A stretch of 64,000 bases of DNA from Struthio camelus (taxonomy: Eukaryota > Chordata > Aves > Struthioniformes > Struthionidae), in assembly GCF_040807025.1 (NCBI RefSeq), contig NC_090952.1, positions 25,851,068 through 25,915,067 on the forward strand, given 5' to 3'. Each line of letters starts with the position of its first letter. Within the stretch, counting starts at the first letter, position 1. A program made the position numbers and the translations under genes. The notes below the pieces were generated by a model, which saw nothing but the letters and a program-made list of their open reading frames with translations, did no database searches and was not told the DNA's origin. Of the stretch, positions 14,001 to 35,240 are shown in pieces.

Positions 14001-17000
14001 TAATACATGTTCAATTCACTGTTTGTGCTGACAAAATTGTATCCTCTGAAGTAAATCTGTTTTTACAAAGCTAGATATTGGAGCTAATATTCTCTGTGCT
14101 GTCATTTACAGTATTAAGACTAAGCTCCATTAGCTCTGGGTCATGGCAACAGACTTTGCCTGAAGGACCTATTTTTTCAGGGAGGACTCTGTTCTGAGAG
14201 CTATCTGATGATGCCTGTCTGCAAATGAAGCATCAAAGTGCTGCTGTGTAAGGCCATGAGGAGCTTGCAGCAGCTTTTTTCCCTGGATGTAGTTCTAGTC
14301 CTCTACACCTAAAAAGAGAGAGGACCTGGAAAAGGTCCACAGAAGGGCAGTGTCAAAGGTCTGGAAGAGACCTCTGCACAGCAAGAAACTGAATAGACTC
14401 TAGGACTCTTGGATGAGGGGGCAAAAAGATGGGAGAAGGGAAAATGACTGAAGGGCAGTATCTTATAAGCCTCAGAGTTTGGATAGGGAAGAGTTGTACA
14501 GTAAATGTGAAACTAAGGGGTTCCGGGCTCAAAACACAGAAAAGAGATACCACCGATGCAGAAAGTGTTAGTAAACTCTGGAATTCCTGGCTGCAGGATG
14601 TTGTGTTTGCTAAAAACTTACAGGGTTCAAATGCAATAGAAAAATCCGTAGAGGATTACTAAATACAAAGATACCATCTCTGACTCAGAAACCTGATGCA
14701 TCTATTATTGGGGGCTGGGAGAGCAGTTAGAAGAACTACTGCTATATGCTTTCCTTGCTCTCATGCTGTTCCCTAGACATCTGCAGTGATTACTGCTGGA
14801 GGCAAGGTAACGTGCCTTTGTTCTGACTTTTTCTGCAAAACATCTCTGAAGCCTCCTTTTCTCCTTCCTTTTTATTATGAGTTTAGGAATAGTAATAGTA
14901 TTTGAAGCTTGTATTAGCTGCAGAATGAGAATATAAATGCAATGTTTGGATTGTCTGTATAGATTATACTTGCAAAAGTATGAGACGTTAATTTCTATCA
15001 GCGTGCTCTGCAGCTGAATCACCAGTTTATAGGATTTTTGCCTTCCCAGATACAGTGTCTTGAAGTGGCACTCTGCAACAGTTTGGTAGTAACACCAAAG
15101 CACAGTCTGGACAAAACTTTGATTTCTCACAGCTGTGGACGTTGCCAGGCTTCTGAAGAGATTGCACATAACATGACTAATGTAGTTAACAGATGCTGAT
15201 AGTGGTGCCTTAGTGCTCAGTTTAAGCCTTCCAGAGAGCTGTCTACCCTTATTCTTGCAACAATTGAAGTCGCAAGTCAGCAGCCAATGAAAGCTAACAG
15301 AATTACTTGCGAAGCAACAGTTTGAAGAGGGAATGCAGCAGCTTAGTTGTCTTCATGTATCTAAGACAGCAGTCTCTTCTAAGACTTGGGACGGAACACT
15401 ATTACCTTGGGAAATCTCTACCTATGAGCAAGCTGTTAACAGGGAACGTGTACACCAACAGTGGAGCAGCGAGCTCAGGATGGGAGGCTGTACTTCCCTA
15501 TGCCTGGCTGATCTTAATTTCTGGTTTTTTTTGTCTTACCCCAAGACCGTCTTCGAGACACCCTGATTCATGAGGTTTGCCATGCAGCCACCTGGCTGAT
15601 CAATGGTGTTCGGGATGGGCATGGACAATTCTGGAGACTATATGCCAAGAAATCGGCTATGATTCATCCAGAACTGCCAGTGGTGACACGATGCCATAGC
15701 TATGAGATTAAGTACAAATTCACCTATGAGTGTGTTTTGTGCAAAACCACGTGAGTAATCTTGGTGGTGCAATAATCTTGCATGTGATTTTTCTTTTAAC
15801 TTTTTCTAACTTGACGGTCTCCTGTGGTAGAAATTATGAACCTCTTAAACTGTAAAGTGCTTGGGATAGTCATCTGAGTTGCCATTTTCCCTTTCCTGAG
15901 CCCACAGAATCTCGCTACATGATTCCACGTATTTGTTTCCAAGTAGGTCCACTTCCAGACTGTCAAGAGGTCAGGACAGACAGAAGTGTCTTGCAGTGAC
16001 CAAGCAGTAAGACGTGTCAGAGTACTTGCCTCAGCTTTGAGGGAGGGGGAGAGGTCACACCCTGCGTGGCTGCTCTCATTTTTCACACTTTGCTCAAATG
16101 ACTCAAGTTCGGATTCTCCCGCTACTATAGGCCTTTGAAACACGCTTGAGTGAACTTGTGCATTTTTTGGATCACATCTTTCTGATTTCGCAGTCAACAT
16201 TGATACTGTTATAAGCTTTACAGTAGTACTTTTTCCAGTCGTGAGTATGCACTAGCATCTGGAATAGTGCTTGTGAACCTGCTCTGTTGAAGCGTTGGCC
16301 AGGTCTGGCTCAGCCCCATAGAACGTACGTGAGCAAAGTACTAGGGTGTATTGCTGTATTAGTAGGTAGAAATAAGGCATTCCAAGTTCTTTGTAATTAG
16401 TAAAACGTACATAGATTTCAAAAGTAAAATCTGCAAATAATTTTCAGTTAGCACCCCTGAACCGTTGTCCCAGATGGCCTGTGATTCAGTCATGGCTGTC
16501 CAATTTTGCTCCACAGAATCTGTAAATAAAAATTAAGACTGTGAAAATGGATATCTGAATTTAGGCTTAAGTTCATGTTGGACCCCTAAATATTTGATCA
16601 GACCTTGAAAAATGTGGAAAAGGCAACGGAAGAAGTTTTAGGGGAGAAATGTCTTAATACAGATTTAATCACTTCACTCTGAAGGATGCAGTCTGTTTCC
16701 TATTATATAATGGTAGCCTAGAAATCTGACCTAAGTAGTCTAGCAGATGAGAAAGGAGCCATTTCCCACAAGTCCTGCCTACTGCAAGTGTGGAATCTAA
16801 GCAGTTGTTTTCCCATTTCAGGATTGGACGTCATTCCAAGTCGCTGGACACGGAGCGTTTTGTGTGTGCACGCTGCGGGGGGCAGCTGGTCCTGAGTCAG
16901 CCCACTCGGAAAGACGGCACTCCTGCTAGGACACATCTAACGCCCTTTGCAAAGTATGTGAAAGAAAACTATGGATCTACTAAAAAAGAGCAGCATGGGC

Positions 17001-17074
17001 TGAGCCATGTAGAAGTTATGAGGAAACTCAGTGCTGAGTTTGCTTTAAAAACTAGGCTTCAAGATTCCTTGTAA
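1733..17074 (+). CDS. GCNA: GCNA, germ cell nuclear acidic SprT-like metallopeptidase (10 coding exons)
   Basis: Exons: 1733-1914, 3136-3185, 3892-3955, 4884-4960, 5811-6254, 8066-8240, 10777-10921, 13007-13145, 15546-15750, 16822-17074; phases agree throughout, giving about 577 residues. The family works in germ cells on DNA-protein crosslinks such as trapped topoisomerase. The N-terminal half is disordered with four acidic-hydrophobic motifs (SSDDEEFEMFLARM, DDSVDDFFLDFKK, SDSEDSVFIESPW, SDSSDGEFESLIERI) that resemble SUMO-interacting motifs. The SprT-like core starts at CSVPGCFLRDLSNP. The metal site is HEVCH, with a further His in DGHG (exon 9). A zinc ribbon follows (CVLCKT ... CARCGG), and then the conserved tail HVEVMRKLSAEFA. 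There is no HMG box. The intron after exon 4 needs a GC donor. Exon 1 (Gly/Arg/Ala-rich, in the CpG island) is supported by phase and a good donor only, so the true start is less certain. Confidence 0.9.
3728..3792. repeat. GT repeat followed by T-rich tract in a GCNA intron
   Basis: Low-complexity GT dinucleotides followed by T runs broken by GG. Other pure T tracts of 22 bases lie at 6994-7015 and 8947-8968 in later GCNA introns, and an A tract lies near 12350-12366. These are simple-sequence features without other content. Confidence 0.8.
8718..8809 (+). other. GCNA: candidate extra or alternative GCNA exon
   Basis: A 92-nt segment with a good acceptor (TTTTGCTCAG) and a consensus donor (GTAAGT at 8810). 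Spliced to exon 6 (ending 8240), it stays open for 31 residues, including RCSGCL. It ends in a phase that does not fit exon 7 at 10777, whereas exon 6 joins exon 7 directly in frame. It is therefore an alternative, frame-shifting exon, part of a pair whose partner I could not find, or a decoy. I searched 8810-10776 for a compensating exon without success. Confidence 0.3.
14280..14815 (+). mobile_element. CR1 LINE 3' end, old and diverged
   Basis: Inside the GCNA intron between exons 8 and 9, in the same orientation as the gene. Recognisable CR1 3'-terminal phrases appear in order: GACCTGGAAAAGGTCCACAG, then CTCTGGAATTCCTGGCTGCA, then ACAAAGATACCATCTCTGAC, then CTATATGCTTTCCTTG, ending near a short CATCTGCAGTGATTACTG stretch. 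The copy is 5'-truncated and carries many substitutions, so it belongs to an ancient amniote CR1 group rather than a recent avian one. The 154-residue minus-strand open frame over it is a shadow. Confidence 0.8.
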
Positions 17075-20000
17075 AATCGCAGTGTTCGTACTTTCTTGAG
17101 GCTGCTTAATTTTTGTATGTATCACTAAAGTAAGTAGCATGGAATATATAGAAAATTTTTTGGAAGATTCCGAACAATTTTAATAGCTTAGCAGTCGAAG
17201 ATCCTGAGGCCTTTTCTGAAATGGGTAACACAGTGGACAAGAAGTAATGATGATGGGGAATCAGAGCAACAGTACTCTAAGTTGCAGTTGACTGGTTTGT
17301 GTATCCTCCTCAAACTTCAGGTAAACAGCTACTGCACCTGGGAAGATGCAGTTCTAGGCCCTTCACGGGACGGAGTCGCTATATTTGTCTTGGGTTTTCT
17401 TAACGATATTTACACATAGTGCCTCATAGCGCGTGTTCAGGGACTCTACTGAGCAATAGTTTTGCTGTGTAGGTCATCTGGGTAGCTGATGTGCTCACTT
17501 AGGGGGTATGCTAGACTCCATATAAACATGCCATAGAACAGCTGTGCGTATATCTGGGATTGCCAGATGCAAGAAAACTCAGGCACATGAGCCAAGTCCT
17601 GTGATTCTGTCTGGATGAAGGGCAGATCTGAGACTTGAATGTGGGTCCAGGTGTTCTCCTAAGGAGAGTTTATTGAATGGTCCTTGGCTGTTTTCCTTAA
17701 AAGTAAGCTGTAGGAAAGATGGTGCCTCAAATTTTTTAGAGACAGTGTGAGCTTTCTCTAAAGCCCTCTAGCCCCTACTGAGATCAAAGCTATCTTTCTG
17801 GTTAAATTTCGATGGCAATTGTTCCTCAATAACTGAGGTTTCGTAGAAACTAAAATAGATGCAAAAGGGCAGGTGGGGGAGAAAGCAAATTCGAACAGTT
17901 TTTCCACGAGAGAATGAGAAGCATATATAGGCAGCTGACTTGAATCTTTCCTGTAGAATTTGAATGTGTGTTAAGACTTGCTGTGTGTGTTTGCCGTGAA
18001 CAAATTGCTCAGGTGATTCGCAGTTTTGCATCATCAATAAATGTCTTTTTATACCAACTGTGGCAATGAAGCTGGCATCATCTTTACTGCTATTTAACTG
18101 TGACTGTGTAACTTCTGGGAGATTCTGCATCTGGGTAATGCCTTCTCTTTTAGAGCACTGTCCTGGCCGTGCATTTGCCTTGCACCTCTTTCCTTACTGT
18201 AGCTCCTCTAGTAATTGAGGGGCTTGCTCAGTGTATGTCTCTGTATTGATAAGGGAGGAGGAAAGCGGGTCGGTGGGCAGATGGGAGGCCTGGAGCCTGG
18301 GCACTGTCCCCCCGTTCCTGGAAGCAGCCTGGTTTGGGCTGGGGACGCAGATTGGGGAGGTGGTGCTGGGCTGTGCTCGTGTTGAGGGTGTTCAGGGGTG
18401 CAGCGGAGGGGGGTGTGCAGCAGCTAACACCCCATGCTAACGGCCAGCTGGAGCTAAAGGCGCCCGTTTTTTCCTCTCCGCAGCAGAGGCGAGTGCACTG
18501 CACGGCTGAGCTGCTCCGTGCTGGTGGCTGAGCATGGGCATGCCGCCTGGGGCTGGGGAGCGGCGAGGCGAGGGCTGGTCTGGGCTGCAGAGCATGGGGC
18601 AAATGTGGAGGGGAACGGGGAGGAGAGTAGTGCGACAGCGCATGGGGTGGGTGCTCTCTGCAGGTGCAGCTTTTCAGAGGAGGGGGAGGCAGTGGTGGTT
18701 GGGGGTGGAGGGACCAGCAAGGGGGTGATGCAGGCAGACGTGCAGCTCACTGATTTGGTTGTGCCTCCAACCCCTGTAAGGGGCTATGGGATTTGTGGTG
18801 CTTCCCTCTGGAAACAGGATCTCTGCAATGATGTGTTGCCACTGCTGCGGGACGTGGTGCTCTTAGACTGTCCCAAGTTGTGCCCGTCCTGGTGTCATCT
18901 GGTCTTCTGGAAGCAGAGCCAAGGAGGGCAGTGGTCGAGTGGAGCTCTGGACTGTGTTGGGCTGCTTCATTCGGTCTCATTTTCTTTACTGAACTGACTT
19001 CTGTAATTAAATTAATAAAAACCGAGCTCCCACCCCTGTTGTGTCAGAGGAGCCACGGACCCTGGCAAGTACTGCAAAGGGATGATGTAAATACACTGCC
19101 CTGAGTTGACGAAGGTGTCAGTCTCTGCCTGTCATCACAGACACCTTTTCAAGATGGCATTGAAAATTTCCCACTAGAGCTGTGACTGCAAGATGGGAGG
19201 AGGGTTGGATACTGGTGTAGAGAGACGCTCAAGGCATGTGAGAGGTGAAATGAGTTAAATTTAATGAAGGACTTGCCCTCCAGCGTGGGGGGGGAGCCCT
19301 GGGAACCGTGCAGGGGAGGAGGCTGTTGGGAGGCTACTGGACGGATGGGTTGAATGCCTAGGCGGGACTCGCTTTGTGTATCCTAAGGGCCCCTTTTATC
19401 TCCTGGAGCTGTTTCCTTATCTTGACTATGCAAAGTGGTTGCAAAGGGGAGTAGTTACTGGCTGCCAAGCAGCTAGACGGCGTTGACAAAACGGAAAACG
19501 TGTCTGGCCCTGCCTGGTTTTCCTCAACGCGTAGAGAGCACCCTGCAGGCCGCTGTCGCGGACCCCCCCTCCCATCAGTCCCCTAACTCCTTGCTGGCCA
19601 CAGCTTCCCCAGGTGCTCTCTCCACCACAGGGAATACAGCTGCTGTAGCTGTAGGAGGTGCTTCATCTCAGCACCTCTTGCAAGCTCATCACACCTGCCT
19701 CGCCTTCACCTCTGCAGCCAGTGTGGGCTCTACTGGGACTTGCCACCCAGGAGAGACCCTGACTCATTGGACGTGGTTCTTGTGGAGGACACCAATGGCA
19801 AATAGCTTTGCCGCCAGGCTCTCCAACATCTTCGTTCTCAGCAAAGTGTGCGTGCACAAACAAAACAGGGCTTGGATTCCCCCTGCTGTTGGGGGCTGCT
19901 AGTTAAGACCAGAGTTGTTCCTATCTTCTGCAGGCAGCTGCCTTCCCACCCTTGGTGCCTACAGTGTGAAGCTCCAGTTCTGGTATCTTCTCTGGTTCTG

Positions 20001-20574
20001 CCTCCTGCAAGCTGACCAGTCTGGGAAGGAAAAGCTTCTGAAAATGTAGAAGGAATGGCAACAGTTTCGAGAAAAAGCCCTGTGGCTTTTTAAAGCACGT
20101 TGTGGGAGTAAAATAGTTAACGCCTCATAGGCCTTCGCAGGCCTATCTAGCAAAAAATATCTGCAATGGCCTTGCAGAAGTCAGCGCGACCCAGTTCCCG
20201 AAGGAATGTATTGTTTGTAGGCGAGTGTGCGTGCCGTATTGTTGGAGCTTACGCTTCTGAAGTGATTCACTCCCTGTTCCTGCTTATCCACGTAGCTGCA
20301 GCTCTGTGAAGGACGAGTCGTATAACCCAAAGGAATAATCACCTGCGTAACTGCCTCGCTTGGGCCGAGTTCGTATGAGCAGTCTGGCACGCTGCTGCTG
20401 CTCTGGGCTCTCTCCTGTAGCTGCAGCAGTAAAACTTGTGCTCTGACCTGAGCCTGAACTGTGCTCCAGTTGTTCCACGACAGCGTGAAAGTTTGGAACA
20501 GGTCAGGTATTGATGTGATCTGGGCAACAGCGCAGACTGAGAGCGTCCTTTCGCAAAAAAAACCTATCACAAAC
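17075..20574. other. GCNA 3' UTR and downstream intergenic DNA
   Basis: After the GCNA stop there is an AATAAA at 18036-18041 (3' UTR about 960 nt) and another at 19014-19019. Between about 18.25 and 18.75 kb the sequence is GC-richer and has open frames on both strands, but they are low-complexity and lack splice or family support. Nothing else recognised. Confidence 0.5.
18036..18041 (+). terminator. GCNA: likely GCNA polyadenylation signal
   Basis: AATAAA in the sense orientation, about 960 nt after the GCNA stop codon and followed by T-rich sequence. No nearer canonical signal was seen between 17075 and 18035. Confidence 0.5.
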
Positions 20575-20735
20575 CCTTTGTGGCCTCTTGAGTTCAGGGC
20601 TGAGGGGGTGGTTTTGGTTTTAGCTCAGACCCCTTCGTTAGGGACATAAAGGAAAAGAGTAAGTTTTTACACTGGGGCTCCTACCAGGCTTTTGCTAGGC
20701 AAATTACGTGGTTATTTCTGTCTGGCCGAGCTCTG
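20575..20735. repeat. copy A of an unidentified interspersed repeat
   Basis: This stretch can be aligned by eye with 26075-26240 in the same orientation. Shared blocks in order are CCTCTTG.GTTCAG, TTTTAGCT/TTTCAGCT, an A/G-rich block, a GTAARTTTTTACA motif, then TTTGYTRGRCAAATTACRTGG. Divergence is high (roughly a quarter to a third of positions by eye). The family is not recognised. Confidence 0.55.
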
Positions 20736-20944
20736 AGAGGAACAGCAGTTTTGCTCCTCTTTCTCCCTGCGAGGCAAAGCTCTGCTCCTGTCTGCGTTTC
20801 CGATGGGTCGTGGCTTCTTCCGCCTGATGAGGTGCCTGGCTGCGTGGATGACGGAAGAGGAGTGCATGTTGCAGGCCAGGCCCTGAGCGAGGTTTTCAGC
20901 ACGGTCCTCACAGCAAAAGCAGAGAGCTGGGCTGGCACACAGCA

Positions 20945-21085
20945 TCCAAGTGGGCGGCAAAGCAGCTGGCCCATCGGGTCAGAGTGGGGTCGTGCTCACT
21001 GGTAGCAAGTCCAACTGCTGCTTGGGGCTGATACTGTTTTATGTCTTTGTTAATGACCTTTGTTGGTTCTGCCTAACAAAAGGCG
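20945..21085 (+). mobile_element. CR1 reverse-transcriptase fragment
   Basis: Translation in the frame starting at 20950 gives LGLILFYVFVNDLCWF, preceded by QSGVVLTGS. This resembles the CR1 ORF2 palm segment ([21 protein letters not shown]) with a small length change before it. The rest of the element is not visible, so this is an isolated, decayed internal piece. Confidence 0.6.
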
Positions 21086-22481
21086 CGCTATGGAGCGGTG
21101 TTCCTGTAGTCCCCAGGAGGGAGGGTAGCTCTGGCAGGTCCTCCTCACGTGCCGTGAGCTAAGGCAGGAAGCGGGACGCGCTCTGGGGCTAGCTGAACAT
21201 CTCTGGCATGATTATTTTCCCCTGCACTGCTCTCCCTCTTTGTGCTGCGCATCCTCAGGGCCAGCCCCGAACTCAGGGGAGCTGCCTGGCAGGCGTAGCC
21301 TCGTACAGGTCCTCTCACTGCCACTTATTGCAGCTGCAGGAGAGAGCTCGGCACAGAGCCCGAAGCATCGTCCTGAGGGTTGAGGGCAACTGCCTGGAAG
21401 CGGAGGTGTTCAGGAAGGTAAAGATGCCTGTAGCGGGAGGAGAGACTTGGGTGAGGGTCTACACAGGCGTAGGACAAATACCTGCCTGTTGCCCACCACC
21501 GAGGGCTTCCCTGAGGCATCATGGCCTTGGCACGCAGATCCACACAGATACTGCTGCCAGGTGCCGTGGTGTGCCACGGTGATGTGGCAGCAAGGGCTGG
21601 CTGGGAGGCCAGGGGAGCCCCTGCTCAATCCCTAGCTCTGCTTAGTCTGCTGGGACCATGGCTGGGTCACCGTGACCAACCCCAAGCCCCTGTGAGAAGC
21701 AGGGCTGGGCACCCCTGGGCTCAGTGGCTTTGAAAGCCACTGTCCCCGGGCAGCTCCTGCCTCAGCTGTGCCACGTACACACCTGATTCATCCTCTGATG
21801 TGTCTGCGAAGAATGAGGATAAACGCTCGTCTGCTGCACGCCTGTGGGCAAGCTGCATCGGAGAGCCAAAAACAACCCATCTGTAAGGTCATGAGCCTGC
21901 CATACTCAGGACAACAGTACCCTGGGATGGACGGGGAAGCGGTACAGGGCCCGGGGATGCTGTGAACAGCCACAAGTCCCAAGGGAAGGGGCCTGTGGCT
22001 GGCAAGCTGACGAGACAACACGTGTTGCAGGGCTGTAGGGCAAGTCTAGAGGCTGCAACAGGCCTCTCCCCAGTGGGTGATAGTACAGAGGGAAAAGGGC
22101 TGAGGGTGACAGCTCGGCAGCACAGGCAGGGGTGGCCCGTGGGATGGGGCAGGGGTCTTTGCCCACCGCACCTCCTAGACAGCTCATGCATCTGGTTTGT
22201 TTGGTGGTCAGTGCTGACCTTGCGCTCCCGGCTCACCTGGTGCCAAAGGCCTCTGGCCAAGAGAGAACTCATCGGCCAGGTGGGTACTGGCATAGCAAAA
22301 AGCGCTCTGCGGGGTGGGTGGGGGCTCTTCGGGAGGAGTGGGCGCGCGGAAGAGTCTTTGCTCAGGAAGCTAGGTCTTGCCCAGATTGTGCAGGTGGAGG
22401 CTTTTTTCTGCAGCTGCCATGACATCCAAGGTTGTCTTGCCTCTTCCTGCCTGCTCATCGTGGTATCCAGGTGGCTCTTAC

Positions 22482-25312
22482 AAATCAGTGAGTTCTCCAC
22501 TTTTAAAATGTCTTCATTAGTGTCCTCTTCCTCATCTTCTTCCACTACCACTTCCAATTCCACACCCTTTGGTGCTTTCAGGCCTCTCTTCTTTGCTCTC
22601 GCGCTCCGCTCCTTCTTGACGCTGTGGACTACCAGGTGCTCCAGCAGGTCCTGCGTGGTTGTCACATCCTTGAGGAGCTCCACTCGTGTGATTTCAGGTT
22701 TCCACAAGTTAGGGAACGAGTTTCTGCGGAAGACCTGAAACCAGAGAGGGAAGATTCGTGAAGGTAGCTTCATTTCCCGCTGGGAAATGCCTCTCAGGGG
22801 TCAGCCAGCAGCAGATGCAGCATTGTGGGGCAGCGGCTGGCCCCAGGAGGAGAGAAGGTTACAGGCCAAAAGGACCAGTGCTGGAAGATGTCAGCTTTTG
22901 CCCATCCACCCTGCCTGAGCCTGTCCTTCACACTCACCTCCCTGGGTTTGACATTGAGTTGTCCTGACACTGTTAGGGTGAAGCGTTTCCCCTCGCCCTC
23001 CTGTTCCTTGGCCTCGCTCTCCTTCAGGGTCTGCCTCCTCCAGAGATGGTGTTTTCGGAGCTGGGCCAAGCTCTGCCCAGTGCGGGCCAGGCAGCTGCTG
23101 TTGAGCTCCTCGAGGGACTCTGTTCTTATAGAGAGCACTGAGAGATGTTCTGATGTGACATCTGGATGTACCTTCATTGGCCTGCCTCTAATGCAGGGGA
23201 CAATGGTCAAAGCCTGCCCTTGTGGGCCCTGCCTTGTCTGTGGCCGTTCCCGGTGCCCTGGCCCATGGCCCCTGCCTGGGAGAGCTGGCCCACAGGCCCT
23301 GCCAGCAGCCCTGTTGCTGCCACAAGCACGGGGCTCAGACTCTTGCAGAGCCGTGGGGGATGTGGTTTTACCAGGCGTCGTGGTCTGCTCCGGGGATCCA
23401 CTGGCTGGTGCCGCTGGACCGTTTGTGTGGGCTACCAGCCCCTGTGCCATGGCCACATGGTGCTCCTCCATGGTTTTGTCCGCATTGGGCTGCACCAGCT
23501 GTGGACTGGGTCCTGGGCTCATGGCGCTGGCACGGCTCCAGGCTGCAGTCACGAGCTGCTGGACTGTGTGCTCCAGAGCCGTGGCAGGCAGGGCAGGACC
23601 CTGACACTCAGGCCTCGCTGCCACGCCTGGGTCGCCGAGGATGCCCTGAGAAAACCTGTCTCTTCCAGTGTTGGCTTCTTCGGGGGATTCAGAGCTGTGT
23701 TCTGCCAAGATCTCAGCAAAGGGAGTTACTTCTGTGGTGAGGACAGGCATAACAGTGAGGGGCGCTTGCAGCTCACGAAGCTGCAGGTCTCCACTGTGAA
23801 ACAGCAGGTCACCGCCATGTGCTGCCATGTCTGGGGGTTGTACCTTGGCCTCCTGGCCAGAGATGGCTTTGGGAGCTGGAAACTTTCTGCTCTTTAGCTC
23901 ATTGCATGTTTCTCTGAAGACTTTGGCAAAATCAGCCCTGGCAGGGGGCTGTGGCAGCCTCAGTGCTGTTGGGCAAGTTGCCAAGCGCTCGTCCTGCTCC
24001 TTGTAGGCTGGTCCACAGTGGATCTCTCTGCTAGCAACGCTCTCGGCTCCCAGCGGAACGCAGGAGTGGCTTGGAAGCTGCCAGCTGCTTGGAGGAGGCA
24101 TAGTCATGGTGCCATGGCTTCGCCATGTCCTAGGTTTTCCCTGTGCTGATGCTGAGGCCCTAGGCCTGACCACAGGCATGGCGCGGACCATCTCTTTGAT
24201 TCCCTTGGTTTGGGCACAAGCATCCCGCTTGGGTAGTTGAGGGGAAATCAAAGGGAGACGAGCTGGCTTTTGCTTTTCCTCTTCCCATCTCTTTTCCGAG
24301 TCCGGAGCCATTGCAGCACCACTGAGAGACTGGACGTGTTCTCTTGGGTCAGCTTCTTTGAAGTTCTTAACAGGCTGCTTGAGTCCCTTGGATGCTCTCT
24401 CCAGAATTTTTGCTGCTGCGACTTGGCCATAGAGGTACAGGTTCAAATAGAGCTGTTGCTCCTGGGAGACCTCCTGCTGGATGTCATCTATTGCACCCAC
24501 AGCATGTGCCCTGTCTCCGGGAGAAGATCCAGAGGACGTTTCCAGAGCGGGCAGCTTGGTTTGACTTGCAGCTCCTGGCATTTTACCTGTAAGTGCATCC
24601 AGGGACACATCTGCCTGTGTTGCTGCCTTGGCTGGGAGAGGTGCTAAGTAAGGCAGATGGGGTGAGCCGGAACGATTTTCAGCTGGCAACTTGCACCGAA
24701 AACGCTGCTGGCAGTGTGGGGCTGCCAACGCCTCCCGTTTGCACCTAACCCCTCCAGCTGTCTCTCCGGCTGCAGAGACGAACCCTGGGGTACTCTGGAT
24801 GTCCCTGCTCCTTTCTGCCATCCCGTCCCTCTGCAACAGAAGCCAACCAGAAAGGCGGCGTTACCGTGGTCCTGCCCGCCGTGCTCCATGCGCCTGGCGC
24901 GAGCCCCGAGGGCAGCGCTCGGCCGGGGACAGGGCTGCTCGCCGCGGGGCGAGGGCCGCGCTGTACCTGCGCGCTGCTGTGGCCGGAGGCTGGCGAGCTC
25001 AGGGGGCAGGGGAGCAGAGGCAGGCTGGGCTGGTGGGACGCCGCCGGGCTCCGGCCATGCTGCCCGGCTGCAGGCAGCTCCTGGTGGCCCACCTGCGGGG
25101 AGAAGGAGGCACGCGATGGAGGCGGCTGCATTGGCACAAGCGGGGCCTGTGGCGTGGGAAACCGCAGCCCCGTTTCGAAGGGAAGCTCGTGGCTGAGCGT
25201 GGCCCTCCCCGCTGCCTGCCTCTCCCTCCGCCCCGGGGCTTACCCTGCTGCCCCCCTGGGCGCTCGGGCACCTGCCTGCCGGCTGGGAGCGGGCGTTCGC
25301 CTCCCCCTCCAT
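22482..25312 (-). CDS. unrecognised long disordered protein, at least three exons
   Basis: Exons on the minus strand: 25312-25244 (start ATG with G at -3 and G at +4), 24830-22938, 22734-22482, then at least one more. Junctions are in phase with good sites: donor AGG|GTAAGC, acceptor CTTCTGTTGCAG, donor GAG|GTGAGT, acceptor CTGGTTTCAG. At least 738 residues are visible. The N-terminal two thirds is Pro/Ser/Ala/Gln-rich and looks disordered, apart from a likely helix (SQEQQLYLNLYLYGQVAAAK). The C-terminal part looks folded or conserved: LTIVPCIRGRPMKVHPDV, FTLTVSGQLNVKPREVFRRN, LWKPEITRVELLKDVTTTQD, then a basic patch and an acidic run (EVVVEEDEEEDTNEDI). The third exon probably ends at 22482 (donor GTAAGA); candidate last exons begin at 21333 or about 21960, both unproven. 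I do not recognise the family. By position a relative of human CXorf49 is conceivable, but I see no similarity to it. Confidence 0.65.
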
Positions 25313-25420
25313 GCCCGTCTCCGGGAGCTGCTCCCACTGGAGCTGCTCGCCGCAGGGTGGGGACCCCGGGGGGGGGGGGGGAGGCCTGTCCCCAACAGGG
25401 ACATGGTCACCATGGGGAGC
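24850..25420 (-). promoter_or_regulatory. CpG island over the first exon of the unrecognised gene
   Basis: A GC-rich, CpG-dense block centred on the proposed first exon (25244-25312), with a run of G at about 25369-25381. Outside it the sequence becomes ordinary. It is the natural promoter candidate for the minus-strand gene. The overlapping long plus-strand open frames come from base composition. Confidence 0.5.
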
Positions 25421-26074
25421 CCCCCCATCACAAAGAGCCGTTGTGGGCACCGTGCAGTTCCATTCCCCGCCCCATTACAAAGAGCAGGATGACTTTTCCT
25501 CTCCCCCCCCCATTCTGCACTGTCCCACGCCTCTGCAGCGCTGCCTCTTCTCCTTGGCTCCCTGGCCCCTCGCAGGTCCTAGGGAGGTCCCCTCAAGCTC
25601 TGTGACCACCTTGAGTGCTTGAAGGGCCATGGTAGGACAGAAAACAACTTCATTTGTGCTTGCTTGGATTAGAGCAGCGCCTCACCTGTAGTGTGCATGT
25701 GGGTCTGGATTGAGGAGCGGACCCGCAGCCTCGGGTTGTGCCTCCTTGATGTCCCACTGAATGCCAGGGCAGCCCTTTCCAGAAGGCCCTGTTTGTACCT
25801 GAACTGTCGACAACAGTCACACAGCTGCTTGTAGTGCTAGTGATGGCTGGGGCCTGGAAAGGGAGACCAGGGACCGGTGCAGCAGAGCACCTTCTCCATG
25901 CCAACAAGTTGAGGTTCCCCCCACCCCCAAACCTTTTTTTTTTTCTTCAGAAAAATGGTTTGCTCTACTTGTCTTACTAGTCTTTATCTTTTGGGCTATT
26001 TCTTAATAAGAGAGAATTTTTGAGTTCAAATACCATTGCTCTGATCATCGTGCCAATTCCAACCGTCTGTAAAA
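25421..26074. other. intergenic DNA upstream of the unrecognised gene
   Basis: C-rich simple stretches near 25500 and a T tract near 25930. No coding or RNA feature recognised. Confidence 0.5.
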
Positions 26075-26240
26075 CCTTTTTAACCTCTTGTGTTCAGATT
26101 TGGGCAGGGCAGGGCAGGTATTTTGTTTTCAGCTTAAATTCCCTTCCTCAGGGGTGTAAATGAAAGAGAGGAGTAAATTTTTACATCAGAGCTTCCTAGG
26201 AGGCCTTTGTTGGACAAATTACATGGCTATTTCAAGTTTC
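26075..26240. repeat. copy B of the unidentified interspersed repeat
   Basis: Direct-orientation relative of 20575-20735, alignable over about 160 bp (see copy A). The two copies lie 5.5 kb apart, one on each side of the unrecognised minus-strand gene. Similarity fades after the GGCCAG / TGGCCG block. Confidence 0.55.
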
Positions 26241-26514
26241 ATGGCCAGTCTCTGGGAGGAGGAGGCTCCCCCATGGAAGCATGGGGGATGGCTCAAGTAT
26301 TGCAAAGCCCAAGGGACAAAGCAGCTAATGTGTTTTCAGTCTGTTGTGGAGGGATGGGGTGGGGTGGGGTGTGTGTGTGGAGGGGTCAGGCGTCATGTTC
26401 AAAAGCAAATTATCTTCTGCCTATCACAGGCCATCAGCAACACCAAGCTGAAACAGGCCCTAGCTCTGCAAGCTAAAGCCTTCTTTGCTCACAGCCTTCC
26501 TGGGGACAGGTGAA

Positions 26515-26735
26515 AAAATCTGGAGATCCTGTTTGGGATCCTAAAAGAAGAGAAGCAAGACAAATAGCAAAAAATCACAGGCCTGGACTGCCGGAGAGCA
26601 GGTTTTGACTTGATCTGGGATATACTTGGCAGAATTCCCTGGACGATGGCCCTGGAGGGCCACGGGGCCCAGGAGTGCTGAGTGATCTCCAAGGAGCACG
26701 TCCTCAAGCCTAGGGGCAGTGAAGCATCACTCAGT
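26515..26735 (+). mobile_element. CR1 ORF2 fragment (between endonuclease and reverse transcriptase)
   Basis: The translation contains NLEILFGILKEEKQDK, then GLDCRRAGFDLIWDILGRIP, then MALEGHGAQE. This follows the CR1 ORF2 stretch that reads roughly EFRILR ... LDFRRADFGLFRDLLGRVPW ... ALEGRGAQESW. At least one in-frame stop shows that it is decayed. It lies just downstream of repeat copy B. Confidence 0.75.
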
Positions 26736-28247
26736 GACGGTCGAGGTAAGAAGTGCTTAAACTAGGAAACAGAGCAACAAAAAAAAGGAGCAAATATTGG
26801 CCGTTCATACAATTGCAAGTTGCAGCACACAGACCAAAAAAAAAAAAAAAGGGAAGAGGGGCAAAAATTGAGTGCTCTACCTTCAGAGAAGTGTTACTGT
26901 TTGAGATTTTTTGCTTATATCACTGCAGAAAGACCAAAAAGAAGTCTGACAGAAACATCCTGACTTTTTTCACCTTGGAATCTAAGAGCTTCCAAAGCCA
27001 AGCGCAATTTGCAGTTGCTAATCAGTTGCTTACAGGAAAGGGAACACTTCTCTCTCAGCTGCTTTACTTTCATCCTTCCAAACCAGCAGTCAAGGCAGCA
27101 AGTTGTCAGAAACATCACAACAGGCAACAACTTCCACTGCAGTAATACAGGCAGCTCCTCATTTTCATCTGCTCGAGCATGTAAGGCTTCACATTGAGAC
27201 TATACACAGGAACAAGGGAGCTGAAACAGAAGTTTAACTACACTGCCAGTTCCTGCACTCAGATGAGATAGATAGACGTCACAGAACTAGATGCAGATGA
27301 CAACATGCATGGACTTGGGCTACTCTGAGATCCCAAAGCAAGGACATTTAAAGAATCAGTTCAACAACATAGGGATTTTCTTCAGCTTCAAGCCAATGAA
27401 GTTTCTGCTATGAAGTGCAGCATATAGGAATGAAAGGCTCACGTATCTCTATCAGTTCTCTTCTCAGCATCTTTTTCTTCCCTCCTGGGAAGGACCGCAC
27501 TTCTCAAACTCAGTCCAGCAGAAACAGTCCATTTTGTAAAGAGCCTCAGTGCTTGGTATGCAACAGCAATAAATGAAATAGGAGAAAACAGAGACAGAGT
27601 CCAAAAACGCAGGCACTGACACTTTGTTTGATGCAGCATCTAGTTCATTTCTACTCTCAACGGCTCTGGCTTTGGAATTCTTTATTTGGTTTGAAGTTAC
27701 ACAGAGCATTGATCCTATGTCCAAGATCCCTCCCACCTTTTACCTGCCTGGGTGGATAACCAGTAATCCAGAACATTACTAGAGGCAAGATCACGGTTGA
27801 CTGAAGCTACTAAAAGAAGGCAGAAATCGGCAGCATGAGAAATGACTGCAGGGAGACTAACTCCCTTCCCCTCTAATCCTCCTGTTCTAGGCTCCTGGTA
27901 AACACGTAAAGCAGTAAGACTTCTGTCAAAACATAGGAAAGGGGGGAAACACGTTCCCTAGGTGCGCACCCTCCAGAACTGAAGTCTCTTCTACCAAGAG
28001 ATGCTACCTAACCCTACCACTGAGCTAGACTTGCACTGCTTCACAGAGCACCTGGAGAGACGCCACTGCTCTCCATCAAGCTGGGGCAGATGGGAGCCCT
28101 TATCCAGTAGGAGTGCTCTCTGCTGCAAGGAGCAAGAGGCACAGCTAGCATCTTCACTGGAAGGCAATATGGGGCCACTCCTCAGCCACAGGTAGGTCTT
28201 GTAGGTTTTATTCATGTCTCTTTTCTGGAAGGTCTGCGTTTCCTCCT
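26736..28247. other. BRCC3 3' flank and UTR
   Basis: For BRCC3 (minus strand) an AATAAA (plus-strand TTTATT) lies at 28207-28212, about 35 nt past the stop, and another at 27681-27686. Either could end the transcript. The remainder has an A tract at about 26836-26850 and no recognised gene; open frames here lack support. Confidence 0.45.
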
Positions 28248-31200
28248 TCACTCCAAAGCAGCTAGTTCCTCCAAAAGCTGCTCTTTCTCCTGCTGCAGCT
28301 CCTGCACCCGCTGTTTGTTCTGCTCCAGTCTGTCCTCCAGCCACTGAAGAAGCGGCCCACTGATGGCAGACATCTGGCTGCAGAGGTTCTTCGTGAACAC
28401 TGGAAAGAGCAAGAACACATCATGCCAGTGCAAATGACTCAGTGTGCTACAGAAACCCCAAAGCCAAGAGCATTATGGAGCGTCAAAGAGGCTCTACAGG
28501 ATCCTGGCCAGGGCAACCAGTGATCCCCACAGGAGAGTCAGAATCAGCAGCTTTTCAGAGAGGGAAACAAGTTATTTCGCCTTCACCTTTAGACACCTGG
28601 GGGAAGGAGGACAGCTCTACAAAAGGAACCTGGAAAATCACATATAAGCCTGCCTCAACGCTAATTCATTTCCACATGCAGAAGTGAAGAAGGCGGCCAC
28701 GTCTACTGAACAGGTAAGAATGGATGACAAAGTATTTATTTTACAACAGAAAGGCGCTTAGGATACAGTCTAACTCACTGGCAAGAGCAAGGATGTCATA
28801 GGGGTGTAACATACGTGAAGCGCCAGGAGAAGTAAGTAGTGTCTGCCTGATCTGTACACATGCTTTAAGACTCACCAAAACAATCATCCCTTGCCATTTT
28901 AAGTGGAGGGACAAAAAAAAAATCTATTGAGATTTTTTAACAATTTAATGCAGGGTTCCTTAAGGAATCCAAAGGATGCAGTGGCATTCATTCCCCTGGA
29001 ATTAGGTTATTTTACAACCCTCGACATCTGCCTTCAAGGTGTTTAGTCACATTTCCATCCCTCCTCCAGACTTTATCTAACAGGATAACATAGTCACAGA
29101 AAATTCTTCAGGTTATACAGTGTTTGGGATTGGAAATGAGCTCTACGGTTTACAGGTTAAAAAAAAAAATTGAAGTACTTCTGTGGTTATTTACAAGCGT
29201 CCTTTATGACCAAGCAGGCACTGCAGCTCACAAGGACTGTTAGCCAGCTGTGGGCTATTGTCCCTTACTGGCAGGGCCAGAGTGACCATTACTTAAGGTT
29301 CAGCTCACAGAGCCCTGTCCAGCACTCACAGGCAAAAGAGGAAACCTTACCTGAGCCATTATGAATCTTGGTTACGGAGTCTAGATGGGTGAGGCTAAAA
29401 GAATGAACAGAACGCAGATCGGTGACAAGACAGCAGTGAATTATGTGTTAGGCAAACCCAAACTATGGAAACGGAGACCCACAAGTCACTGACAACATAG
29501 GTACTTCGAGACCTCTTCATTTGTTGGAAGCCCTGTACATGCCCAAGGCTAACAAGCCAGCTACTTGCTATACAAAAACAGCAGTCTCTATCTTGAGTGC
29601 CAGATGCAAGAAAGCCACCCAGCTGACATCTAATCTCATTTTTTTTGACTGCTCTTCTCAGCACTCTTACGCTGGTTAAACACTAGCTACAATCACACAC
29701 AGCCACAGCACTAAAGTGCCACCATGAGCTTATACATGCTCTAGCTCTTTTCTGTTGCAGCAGCAGCAGCGTTGCGCTTAGCTGTTGTGCCATAGGAGTA
29801 GTATGCAAATCGCATGCTGCTGTGCAAGGCAGAGAGTGCTTGAACTCCTGAACATGAAGGTATTCAAACAGTTCTCCCTGTTTACATAAAGTGATAATGC
29901 ACTAAGTTTTTACATCCATGCTAAGACTACAGTGCTTTGAAGTATAGCCACTGCAGAACCTGTTCGCAGAGACAGTCCTGGAGAGGGATGCAGCCCCAGC
30001 ATTTTTACCTGTGAATCCTCCTGTAGGCATCTTGCTCTTCCTGGCAAAGGATCTTGGGCAGCTCTACAGCTGATTCCAGGCACACTTTCCCAATGGTTTC
30101 ATGGGGGACAACATGAATAGGAATTTCAATCCTTTCGTATCTAAAAAGGTATCAGATGCAATTAACTTCAAAGTAGCAAGGCAAAAAAGCCTGTCCGACG
30201 CACGCCACCGCTACAGGTTTAACTTTGGGAACGCATGGCTGTGTTGATAGGCAAATGGAAGCCTTTTATAGCCACTCTCTTATCTCGAAGTTTAATGATA
30301 TAACCCCCACAGCAACTAGACTGTCAGTACAGTCATGTCAGTACTCATGCACAGCATGTGTCCAGTAGACGGGGACCCTACACCATAGGAGGAAGGCTTA
30401 GGAAAGCCTCTGGAGTTAAAAGCAAGAGGTAGGCCCTTCTGCACGATAGGTTGCAGCACAGTTTCAGGCCCAGACTAAACAGATCGCAACTCAAATTCAG
30501 GCCCAAACTACTACGTTCTACACCAGGTCTTAAGTGCCTAAATTATCAAGGCTAAATTAGTCAGCCCTACCGTCTGGCTCTACTGTTCTCTTCAAGCAAC
30601 CTCCATCAGCAGAAGCAACGACACCTTGTTTACACATCTCTCTGTGATATTTGTTCCTTGCTACGAACTTGGAAGCCACACATTGGAGACAACCCAGAAC
30701 GCTGATTTTTAAAAGGAGAAACAAGATCAAATACAACCTGAAGCTGGATGTATTCTCCTGCTGTACTTACTCTGAGCTCTTCTGGGCTTGAATGGACTGG
30801 AAACAAGTGTAGAGAATCCTGCCTGTCTAAGAGAGCCATCAGAAAAGTCATATTCCAAGTAACGAAAAATCATTTAAAAATCCAGAATTCTTTTAGGAAG
30901 CAGAATATGCTTTCAAATAGCATTTCAACACGTTGCAAAGGTAAACAATTTCTGCTCTGACTGATTGGTAATGCTAACAAGCAGGAACTGATCTACCTGT
31001 TAGCTATGAAAAAAGAAAAAAAAAATATCTTACAGCTTTTTGGAAAACTAGACAAGACACACCACTGCCAGCCCATCTCACGCTGTAGTAGCAGCTCAGA
31101 TAAATTAAGCGCTCTGAAAAAGCACAAGGGGCCACAGGCACAAAGATGAAATAAGCTAGTTCTGCCAAACAGATGAAGAGCATTCATTTGTTTAAATGCA

Positions 31201-33858
31201 CACTTATACTGAGTCAGCCATCTGATTCAGTCCCAGAACCCGATTCCCACACAGTTCTACTGACTATCGAACCAGGCTGTGGATGAGGAAAGAGTAATAA
31301 CTTATTTTTCTGTGAATCAGGATCATGCCCCAAACATCAGCGTTCTAGTCACTCTTTGACCTTGCTGCATACAGAGCACAGCCTTTGTTGCAGGTTGCAT
31401 CCAAGGGCAAACACTGGATTTCAGCTTTGCCTAGGGGCTGACACTTCTCACGGATACCTGAAGGGCTTATCCCCAGTTGTAAGCTGCCTACCTTTGTGTT
31501 TTTGTCCTCAATGAAACAGGAGAAAATAAGCCCTACAAAACCCTGGTCCATCATCTGATACATAGCTTGAGTGCGGACATCTGCAGATAGACAAAAAAAG
31601 ACGAGCAGAACTTCGTTGGTCATCTGAACAACTGAAAAAGAGACTTGCCACCTTTCGAAGGGTGGCTCTGAAACGCGATAACAATCACAAGCTCTATTTT
31701 AAAGGACTTACTCCAGGACGCTAAGTTAAGAGACAAAGAAAAACAAAAGGCAGCCAACTTTAAAGGAAAGTAGCCTTTTTCCACAGAACGTTACACCTTG
31801 ATCCAACTTGAAAATAGAATTAAACAGCAAATCTTTAAAATAGAAGATGAAATAATGAAGTAAAAACCCAAAACAAGCAAACAAACAAACCAACCTCTAC
31901 AAACCCACAATCTTAGCAACAGCCTGGTGCCACAGATCCGATATATAGCCATGCACATCCAATGCTCCTAAATGACTTGCACGGTTCTTTTGAAGAAATT
32001 TTTGCATCAACACAGCTGCCAGAAACCAACACAGCAGGACTATCATTCCCACAGCTCTTTCATCATTTCCCATGCCTCTCGTTTGCAGCTCTACTTGCCT
32101 GGAAGAACAGTAGCAATCGCAACAACTAATCTGAGCGATGTGCAGTTTCAGCGCCTGAAGCACAGCCGCTGTGCTGGGGTTACATCCCACAAACAGGAGC
32201 GTGGCTATTTCCCAAAGCCCATCAAGACAATCTCATCCTAGAGAGGCCCTTTGGAAAACCAACATCTCCTACCTGTGAACCATTCCAGGATTTCCTCCTT
32301 CCCTACAGGTCTTTTAAGTGCGTGTGGTGGTTCCTGGACTAGTGAGAACCTCAGGTCAAAGCTCACAGAGCCAGGAAGGCCGAGCAGCCCTGTCCTACCA
32401 GGACAATCAACCCACATCACGAACCCCGGGGAACGCCACAACTTTGAGAGTTGTGAAGCGCAGATTCAAAATTCAGTAGATTTTGAGTAATACAGTTAGC
32501 AAGCTGTACGTTTTCATACAGAGCCTCGTCCAAGACTTCTCTTACCCACGTGCGATGGCCAGACAGTGATATGAGGATGAGAGTGGTACCAGCCCACAAC
32601 TCTCATGGGACGTCCCGTCATTTCAGCCAACCTGTGTGTCAGTCAAGGTCCTTCTGATACTCTCAGAGCAAAGGGAAGAAATTCTTTGTACAAGCAAAAC
32701 AGCAAGTACAGGATGGCGTTTAAAAAAAGTTTCCCAGATTCAGTGTGACTTCAGATCACTTTAGAGGAGTGACAGGTACCTAGCAGGAAACCTCTTTCCC
32801 ACTGATCAGTAAAATACTCCTATTGCTCAGCAGAAGCAAAATGGATTTTGTTTGCAAGCGGAAACACATGACATGTAAGTAAGCCGTCCAACACAGCATC
32901 CTTAAGCTTATGCAGGGGAAAAGCCCTACAGTGCACCACCCCTGGGAGCAAGGGCTTGTTAACCTTTTACTTTCTACAAAGTTTCCTTGCTGTACTTAAT
33001 AGTTGTTGCTAACTGGAAATAATGAAGAATTTGCATTTGTAAGCTGAACTACTACCCCCTTAAAAGTGTAATTTAGAATTTTATTTGTAATTAAACAAAA
33101 AAAAAGCCAACTATAACAATTAGTTATTACACAACTCCACTGCAAATGCTGGAACCAACACAGACTCCAGAGAATGGCAACTGCCAGCCTGGCTTTCCAG
33201 TCTGAACTGTGGGAGGGAAGCAGCTGACAACTTTGGGCAATCCAGAATAAGTCTTAAACAACTGCCTGCAAAAAGAGACCTGAGCTAAACCGCTTGGTCA
33301 GTAAGTTTTTATGTTTTCTCTGGGAAAGGATATCTCCGCTTCAGTAGAAGCAGCTGAAAGCTGCTCCGGAGAAATTTCCACGCGGTCTTTCCTCTTATCG
33401 GAGCGGCGCAGGATGATCACAGAGTGGATGTGCACAATTCTGCTCGTATCAACCTGACCGGGGGAAGAGGAAAAAAAAAAAAAAGAAAAGTTTATTTGCT
33501 AAAGAAACGGCCCCCTCAAGGAAAAAAATCTGCTGTTGTCTGCTGTTGCATTTTCAGTTGCACAAAAGTACACATCAAAACACAGTCAGGCTGGGCGGAC
33601 GGCGAGTCTCCCCGATGAAGCTTCGGCCGCCGCAGCAGCCAGCGGCGCCGGCCGGCGCTGACAGAGCGGCCCGTGCTCAAGCCCCTTCAGGCCGAGGCTC
33701 GCTCCGCCCGCAGCAGCGCCCCGCGGCCCCCCCCGCCCCCGCGGCGCCGGTACCTCGCCGATACAGAGCCCCATGACCTCCTCCTTCTCGGTGCTCAGCG
33801 CGTGGTTGAGGCACACGAGGAAGGCGTCGGCCTCCAGGTGCACGGCCTGCACCGCCAT
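28248..33858 (-). CDS. BRCC3: BRCC3 (BRCC36), K63-specific JAMM deubiquitinase (8 coding exons)
   Basis: Exons on the minus strand: 33858-33754, 33453-33334, 32633-32546, 31580-31492, 30826-30771, 30140-30009, 29394-29351, 28399-28248; 262 codons including stop, all phases consistent. BRCC36 is the catalytic subunit of the nuclear BRCA1-A complex and the cytoplasmic BRISC complex and cleaves K63-linked ubiquitin chains. The MPN+ (JAMM) motif is intact: the upstream Glu in STEKEEVMGLCIGE, then HSHPHITVWPSH followed by Asp across the exon 3/4 border. The C-terminus is a helical coiled coil (LLQWLEDRLEQNKQRVQELQ...) used for partner binding. Compared with the longest human isoform, two segments are absent: about 24 residues after CIGE and about 25 residues after QKSSE. 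The intron between exons 2 and 3 has U12-type AT-AC ends. Expression is driven from a promoter shared with MTCP1/CMC4. Confidence 0.96.
32634..33333 (-). other. BRCC3: U12-type AT-AC intron of BRCC3
   Basis: Reading the minus strand, exon 2 ends GAAGCGGAG and is followed by ATATCCTTT, an exact U12 5' splice-site consensus. Exon 3 must begin AGGTTGGCTGAA (RLAE), directly after ACACAC. A branch-site match CCTTGAC lies at 32648-32642, with its A 9 nt from the end of the intron. No GT or AG pair gives the right phase here. Confidence 0.88.
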
Positions 33859-34310
33859 CTTGGCGCCACCGCCCGCCCTTCTTCCCCGCCTCGCCCGGAA
33901 ATGGGCGGGGCCTCTCCCCGGCCCACCCCCGCCCTCTGCTGGCAGGGCCAATCGCGACGGGGGGTCGCCGCGCCGCCAGCCAATGGCCGCCCCCGAGGGG
34001 CAGGCCGGCTTCCGGAGAGGCGGGCGGTCCCTCGCCACAGAAGCGCCGTGTCGCCCACGCGAGCGGCGGCCCGTTGGTTCCGCGGGCGCCGGCCGCTTCC
34101 CCGCGGCGGGAGGGCGGGGGCGGCCCGGGCGGCGGAGCGGGGCGGGCCGGGCCGGGGCGGGGAGGGGCTCCGCGGCGCGCCGGCTATTGGGGCCTGCGAG
34201 CCGACGGGGGGGGGCAGTCGGGGGGGGGCCGCGGGAGGGAGGCCGGGCGGGGGGGAAGGCTTTGGTCGGTGCACACGGCGGTGGCTGTCACCTGCGTGGG
34301 GGCTGCAGGT
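33590..34310. promoter_or_regulatory. bidirectional CpG-island promoter, BRCC3 (-) and MTCP1/CMC4 (+)
   Basis: The CpG-dense block contains the BRCC3 start codon at 33858 and, on the other strand, a noncoding first exon ending at 34308 with donor CTGCAG|GTAGGT. CCAAT boxes lie at 33948-33952 and 33980-33984, with an inverted one (ATTGG) at 34186-34190. A YY1-type motif (minus strand CAAGATGGCGGT) overlaps the BRCC3 start codon. Human BRCC3 and MTCP1/CMC4 are also head to head, so the arrangement is conserved. Confidence 0.8.
34240..34308 (+). other. MTCP1: probable noncoding first exon of MTCP1/CMC4
   Basis: A sequence ending GGGGGCTGCAG|GTAGGTCA on the plus strand inside the CpG island. There is no ATG in a suitable frame. 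It is the obvious 5' exon to splice to the coding exons at 38.8 kb (MTCP1) or 40.7 kb (CMC4). The 5' border is a guess. Confidence 0.45.
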
Positions 34311-34514
34311 AGGTCACGGGGCGGCGGCTGCGGCCCGGCCCGGCCCGGCTCGGCGCGGCCCCCTCGGGCTCGGCACGGCCTCTCCCGCTCCGCCTGCCAC
34401 CGTGTCGCCCCAAGTCGACCGAGCTGGGCCGGGCCAGGCCGGGCCGGGGCGGCCGCCGCGCCCCGCAGGCCCGGGCCGGGTGGGAGGCGGTTGCCATGGA
34501 GACGCGCTGGGCCC

Positions 34515-35240
34515 CCCCACCCCCCGTTCCCGGGCCCAACCCCAGCCCCCTCCCCGGGCCCAGCTTCCCGGCCCCACGCCCCCCTCCCGGCCCCCAACCC
34601 CCCTCCCCGGGCCCAGCTTCCTGGCTCCAAACCCCCCTCCCCGGGCCCAGCCTCCCGGCCCCACGCCCCCCTCCCGGCCCCAAACCCCCCTCCCCAGGCC
34701 CAGCCTCCCGGCCCCACGCCCCCCTCCCCGGGCCCAGCTTCCTGGCTCCAAACCCCCCTCCCCGGGCCCGGCCCCACGCCCCCCTCCCGGCTCCAACCCC
34801 CCCCTACCTGGGCCTGGCCCCACGCCCTCCTCCCGACCCAAAACCCCCCTCCCCAGGCCCAGCCTCCTGGCCCAAAAACCCCCTCCCTGGGTCTGGCCCC
34901 ACACCCCTCCTCCCAACCCCCCCCTCCCGGCCCCAAACCCCCCTCCCTGGGCCCAGCCCCACACCCCCTTACTAGGCCCGGCTCCCACACCCCCTTCCCA
35001 GGCCCAGCTCACACACCACCCCCTCATCCAGCCCTCCTTGGGCCTGCCTCCTGCACCTCCTTCTCCGGGGTTCTTTGCTTGCCCCAGCTCCCTGCCCTCC
35101 TCGCGGAGCCCGGCTCCTGCACCCCCTCGTCGGCTGGCTCTTTGCTTGCCCCAGCTCCCTCACCCTCTCCCTGGGCCTGGCTCCCATACCCCCTCCTCAG
35201 CCTGCCCTTCTCCCACCCTAGCTCCCAGACCCCTTTCTCT
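34515..35240. repeat. C-rich minisatellite in the first intron of MTCP1/CMC4
   Basis: Tandem, imperfect units of about 34 bp (core CTCCCCGGGCCCAGC followed by CTGGCTCCAAA or CCGGCCCCACG), some shortened to about 20 bp. Past 35040 it decays into longer units containing TTCTTTGCTTGCCCCAGC. One strand is almost all C runs and the other G runs, so G-quadruplex and i-motif folding is plausible. The 545-residue proline-rich open frame across it results from the repeat and base composition and is not a gene. Confidence 0.85.

Follow-up and report, generated by a model that had tools for sequence, protein, structure and literature searches.

The window, by which is meant the whole 64-kb stretch of DNA analysed (C11:25851068-25915067), very likely contains a real protein-coding gene on the minus strand, a short member of the FSIP2 family. 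The gene is intact, it has an array of paralogues elsewhere in the genome, and its FSIP2-like part is constrained. It is best explained, with a probability of about 0.7, as a short sperm-tail gene of this family, a sister branch of which has been amplified as an array on a dot-like chromosome. Taken alone the gene is modest, but it is part of a striking amplification. An earlier note had described an unrecognised gene of three exons, with a long disordered protein matching nothing known; this account is confirmed in part, and its interpretation partly supported. What does not stand is the lack of recognition, as the protein matches the Pfam family FSIP2 (PF15783) with E 3.3e-41. The family is already known, and the gene reads as a short variant of it.

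Exon structure and coding potential

The full model was built from the paralogues and comprises five exons on the minus strand between 25312 and 21315, encoding a protein of 880 aa. Exon 1 (25244-25312) begins with the ATG at 25312 and contributes 69 nt (23 codons, phase 0); a homologous exon 1 is present in the copies on contigs C34 and C32. Exon 2 (22938-24830; 1893 nt, 631 codons, phase 0) encodes the low-complexity body followed by the first half of the FSIP2-like part. The second half of that part is encoded by exon 3 (22237-22734; 166 codons, phase 0), which then continues as an acidic run and a variable tail. Exon 4 (21783-21852) comprises 70 nt and ends in phase 1, its phases being those of the paralogues' exon 4, and exon 5 (21315-21427) supplies a Cys-rich C-terminus and the stop codon. 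All the splice sites and the 880-codon frame are intact. The three in-phase exons of the earlier note survive as far as exon 1, exon 2 and the start of exon 3 (at 22734), which are joined in phase 0 with GT/AG sites; the number of exons becomes five when modelled from the paralogues. The start of the gene, where a CpG island had been placed, is CpG-rich, the region 24750-25249 having a GC content of 0.72 and a CpG observed/expected ratio of 0.68.

The 3′ end of the gene is based upon comparison with the paralogues. By sequence, those on C34 and C32 have five exons with phases identical to those of the window gene; their exon 3 is longer than that first proposed here, terminates at a GTGAGC donor, and is followed by two further exons. 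On alignment the counterpart of this donor is located just after 22237 in the window, and window exons 4 and 5 are the counterparts of the paralogue exons, matched in phase, and the stop codon falls at the corresponding position. Exon 5 is free of gaps against both paralogues (70% and 74% identical DNA). The gene therefore most likely ends beyond 22482, where the earlier note had terminated it, the paralogue-supported model running on to 21315. The least certain stretch of the model is the distal section of exon 3 (22482-22237); over exon 3 as a whole, 133 of the 453 bases aligned with C34 are out of register. A GTAAGA donor at 22481 would provide an in-frame route into exon 5 via a 21-nt exon. 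Since the window shares the later GTGAGC donor of the paralogues, termination of exon 3 at GTAAGA has been demoted, and this alternative 3′ route is kept as a possible isoform. Fusion of exons 4 and 5 into a single exon, through which the paralogue frame is open, was also considered and set aside, as the GTATGT/GTACGT donor and the phases would fit splicing. No AATAAA was found after the stop codon of the window gene, whereas both paralogues have one after theirs.

That this is a real gene, as the earlier note proposed, is borne out by the in-phase GT/AG joins, the match to FSIP2 and the coding character of the frame. Exon 2 is held within a stop-free run of 688 codons, the longest in the window. 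When the region 22000-25600 was subjected to dinucleotide shuffling, none of 2000 shuffles reached 631 codons, the longest run being 502. When the six frames of exon 2 were scored with a codon model that had been trained on the C34 and C32 paralogues, the exon 2 frame gave +57 and the other five -59 to -119; with the FSIP2-like part removed the corresponding scores were +47 vs -46 to -93. A chance open frame is ruled out by the Pfam match, the shuffles, the paralogue-trained codon usage and the shared exon layout.

The FSIP2 match and the genomic neighbourhood

A search of Pfam-A with E up to 10 returned FSIP2 as the single family, with 141.6 bits and E 3.3e-41. Residues 563-734 are aligned with profile positions 618-790 of 875, and the match spans the exon 2/3 junction. 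Using coordinates derived from residue numbers, residues 563-654 correspond to 22938-23213 in exon 2 and residues 655-734 to 22495-22734 in exon 3, both on the minus strand. Taken separately, the last part of exon 2 (E of 2.6e-21) and exon 3 (3.3e-13) both match FSIP2, and the scores sum once the exons are spliced; because the separate half-scores add in this way, the junction receives independent support. The scores of the window, C34 and C32 proteins (141.4, 133.2 and 118.4 bits) lie well above the curated cut-off of 27 bits, placing all three within the family. The coverage of the profile is partial, as positions 1-617 and 791-875 are unmatched by the window protein. With E up to 1, the stretches 17000-22600 and 24900-34500, each searched in three frames of the minus strand, contained no further pieces of FSIP2. 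Among solved structures no sequence match of note was found, the best (E 0.03) being a bacterial transport protein. The protein is thus organised as an N-terminal low-complexity body of ~560 residues, an FSIP2-like part of ~170 residues towards the C-terminus, and a short Cys-rich end. Outside the FSIP2-like part it looks disordered.

The window gene sits between a gene with a SprT-like domain to the left and BRCC3 (BRCC36) to the right. The best stretch of the former lies at 15539-15694 on the plus strand, while JAB and BRCC36_C pieces of the latter occupy 28275-33855 on the minus strand, the gene itself being longer (coordinates derived from residue numbers in both cases). The SprT-like neighbour is presumably GCNA. 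The human X chromosome carries BRCC3 and GCNA, and the mouse X chromosome Fsip2l, and for this reason the window locus may be the FSIP2L locus. There is close to an even chance that the window gene and the X-linked FSIP2L of mammals are orthologues, the gene having become shorter in birds, which would be compatible with the short sperm-tail gene preferred here. The window protein matches the FSIP2 family, so that the family name is common to both, and with these neighbours the linkage fits an X-conserved block; the likeness considered here is one of family name and linkage. Mouse Fsip2l is located at chrX:48838466-48880713 (PMC9729108, in part). The human counterpart, FSIP2LP, is a unitary pseudogene whose orthologues in other mammals are coding, and it takes its name from the coding FSIP2L of horse, pig, cat, dog and mouse (available sections of PMC9825485). 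Because CREB1 binds mouse Fsip2l (PMC9729108, in part), CRE motifs were sought near the start of the gene; neither TGACG nor CGTCA was present there in the window or in the C32 stretch, and there was one TGACG at -190 in C34.

Several other features were observed within the window. A hairpin of the mir-221 family (Rfam, 54.4 bits) is located at 56370-56454 on the minus strand, in a very GC-rich stretch. A 66-bp minisatellite of 13 copies with 91% matches (54611-55478) is open in several frames on both strands, and thus constitutes a trap for false genes. Further GC-rich minisatellites are found upstream of the BRCC3 start, at 34546-35198.

Paralogues, the C32 array and selection

A profile search with the FSIP2 family was made over the genome of 1.45 Gb in 262 contigs. 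From a total of 340 candidates 52 were scored, and the matches listed are the window, an inverted pair on C34 and at least 49 on C32; all 52 cover about profile positions 616-716. The window's own exon 3 is absent from the matches listed, and since even this is omitted, a long FSIP2 may be present elsewhere in the genome. The earlier note would have given up the gene had there been no homologues; within this one genome, paralogues are found.

The extent of the array was estimated using a 30-base mark from within the FSIP2-like sequence. Allowing two mismatches at most, this occurs at 156 places genome-wide (90 forward and 66 reverse; control 0), a copy count that applies to one assembly. The mark is absent from the window, where the best match has 11 mismatches, and is carried by both C34 copies. 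C32 (4.79 Mb) accounts for every one of the first 100 places listed, which lie at 1.23-3.55 Mb. Two of the other 56 are the C34 pair, and the FSIP2 matches listed include 16 on C32 past 3.55 Mb. Spacings on the same strand among the first 100 marks are mostly about 8.9 kb (62 out of 90 being 8.8-9.1 kb). The region of C32 from 1.23 to 3.96 Mb is built of tandem blocks of ~8.94-kb units containing FSIP2-like genes, with changes of orientation between blocks. Over the gene, the array copies are 95.7-99.5% identical to copy L012. The inverted pair on C34 (1264000-1298499, near the end of this 1.33-Mb contig) is 99.94% identical over 8.56 kb. Ten 10-kb stretches of C32 (L019-L028) were chosen irrespective of matches, and part of the gene was present in one of these, L020. 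No Pfam match to other genes in the array unit was obtained with ten frame pieces of copy L013 (six frames of 7450-10000 and four of the six of 1-2800). Other repeats are common to C32 stretches (L019, L022 and L025; L020, L024 and L026), and are located outside the FSIP2-like gene, between blocks.

Sixteen array copies were read. These were drawn from the best-scoring FSIP2 places, and both the share of intact copies and the estimate of selection therefore lean to working copies. The ATG and all eight splice dinucleotides are kept in all 16, and the frame is open in 14; the exceptions are L013, which has lost 8 nt from exon 1, and L017, with a stop at codon 644. Three of the open copies end at the stop of the C34 paralogue, six at a stop located 14 codons further on, and five are open to the end of the piece. 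Within this sample, most array copies appear to be working.

The three parts of the protein differ in their rates of change. For the body of the window gene, dN/dS is 0.89 in comparison with C34 and 0.72 in comparison with C32; for the FSIP2-like part the two values are 0.53 and 0.55, and for the tail 0.96 and 0.86. The corresponding values for C34 compared with C32 are 0.94, 0.38 and 0.74. The ratios indicate that the FSIP2-like part is under purifying selection and that the body evolves almost freely, values near 0.9 in the body and tail being close to neutral. The earlier note was correct in regarding the C-terminal part as conserved, given both the FSIP2 match and a dN/dS lower there than in the body. 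Its description of the remainder as disordered, a pattern it linked with fast-evolving proteins, agrees with a body that is of low complexity and has values of 0.72-0.89 against the paralogues. Within the array, the 14 open copies contain 70 synonymous and 120 replacement segregating single changes, giving a ratio of 0.58 (bootstrap 0.42-0.79). For the FSIP2-like part the ratio is 0.28, based upon 11 and 10 changes and again upon copies that lean to working ones.

The distribution of gaps provides a further comparison. Between C34 and C32 all 10 coding gaps are multiples of three, vs 3 of 22 in non-coding sequence, and the identity of coding sequence (0.779) is lower than that of non-coding (0.811). 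The window is more distant, with exons 2 and 3 being 56-63% identical to the paralogues and introns 2 and 3 66-67%, the coding sequence again having diverged more. In a raw nucleotide alignment with C34, 14 of the 16 gaps in window exon 2 have a length divisible by three, compared with 5 of the 14 in the alignment with C32; for exon 3 the counts are 5 of 7 and 3 of 5 respectively. The same proportions are 0/5 and 0/3 for intron 2, and 2/8 and 4/6 for intron 3. This test is weak for the window, because gap placement is noisy at such divergence. An excess of frame-breaking differences, which the earlier note had named as evidence against a gene, is thus not seen in the coding gaps of C34 and C32, all in frame, while the window gaps are mixed; the comparison is within one genome.

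It is unlikely that the C32 array is mainly a satellite that carries the gene by chance, enlarged through expansion of heterochromatin and not through any benefit of the protein. C32 has other repeats without the gene, the array blocks switch orientation, and satellite expansion has been proposed for chicken dot chromosomes (PMC9974502, in part), all of which would fit; but the ratio of 0.28 in the FSIP2-like part and the open frames of 14/16 copies indicate either that selection acts on the protein or that conversion from selected copies is frequent, in a sample that leans to good copies. Less likely still is that the window copy is a decaying relic, its function taken over by the C32 array and its frame slowly being lost: this would fit the dN/dS of 0.72-0.96 in body and tail, the exon 3 tail partly out of register, the exon 2 gaps against C32 (in frame in 5/14) and the stop codon with no following AATAAA, but all the splice sites and the 880-codon frame are intact, the FSIP2-like part has a dN/dS of 0.53-0.55, exon 5 is gap-free against both paralogues, and stops would be expected by a synonymous distance of 0.6-0.8.

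A probable place in the sperm sheath, and the amplified testis genes of chicken

As a short sperm-tail gene with an amplified sister branch, the window gene would most likely be expressed in spermatids, and its protein would most likely become part of the sheath that surrounds the sperm tail. The FSIP2-like part would bind an AKAP scaffold, with the loose low-complexity body probably acting as spacer or filler. The window gene would be the single-copy member of the family, and its sister branch the one amplified in tandem on the 4.8-Mb dot-like chromosome, driven probably by more testis output or by competition between germline copies. FSIP2 is described as a testis-specific protein of the sperm sheath (PMC12523343 and PMC11276731, each in part), and the match to this family gives support to the reproductive kind of protein that the earlier note had in mind. 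Testis-specific FSIP2 binds AKAP4 (excerpts of PMC12523343); this binding takes place in the sperm sheath, and FSIP2 is linked to human male infertility (PMC11276731 and PMC12523343, in part). A partner of the right family exists in the genome, because there is an AKAP_110 gene on C1, with an exon scoring 301 bits. Weaker AKAP_110 matches are found on C3 and C9, some with internal stops; AKAP3 and AKAP4 are not told apart by these matches. At C3:27740378-27749760 there is an inverted pair of AKAP_110 matches, one of which has an internal stop.

A more specific account is tentative, falling somewhat short of even odds. In this lineage of birds a short sperm-tail gene of the FSIP2 family would have become a selected family with well over a hundred members on a dot chromosome, its source being a locus of the X-conserved block that lives on as the single copy in the window. 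Equally tentative is that the array parallels, on an autosome, the testis gene arrays of sex chromosomes, with dosage or competition between copies acting on a sheath protein.

The sex chromosomes of palaeognaths, Z and W, still share much content. C40 and C41 each contain HIT-family matches, taken here for HINT1 and APTX, with a separation of about 40 Mb in either case, and a DM-domain cluster is present on C41 and not on C40. On account of these matches, shared and unshared, C41 looks like Z and C40 like W, a weakly differentiated pair as in palaeognaths.

A short FSIP2 member with one conserved part and a free body would show which part of a giant protein is essential. In the array a single genome would carry numerous natural versions of the same sperm protein, so that the effects of dosage, gene conversion and competition in the germline could be tested directly on an autosome. 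If this bird is a palaeognath, as C40 and C41 would suggest, comparison across birds would be pointed, its group including emu and tinamou, whose sheaths keep the main parts, vs those of the Neognathae, which are without ribs and columns (PMC11276731, in part).

With respect to known systems, the window protein is like FSIP2 over ~172 residues, matched to PF15783 positions 618-790, but human FSIP2 is a giant protein of 6907 aa (PMC11276731, in part) and the 880 aa found here are about an eighth of this. The functions tested for FSIP2 may not carry over to the short protein, because the profile match is partial and the length about an eighth of the human. No report of an avian FSIP2 array was found in a partial survey of the literature; 'FSIP2' occurs 0 times in the main text of the chicken paper PMC9974502, and PMC12954441 is without FSIP, testis or amplicon. 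The amplified genes of chicken dot chromosomes are testis-biased or testis-specific on 7 of 10 (PMC9974502, in part). These amplicons involve another gene, for example OR29G with 386 intact copies (same source, in part). The C32 array resembles them in consisting of many genes repeated in tandem along a chromosome only a few Mb in length, the first 100 listed of the 156 marks in the genome being located on the 4.79 Mb of C32.
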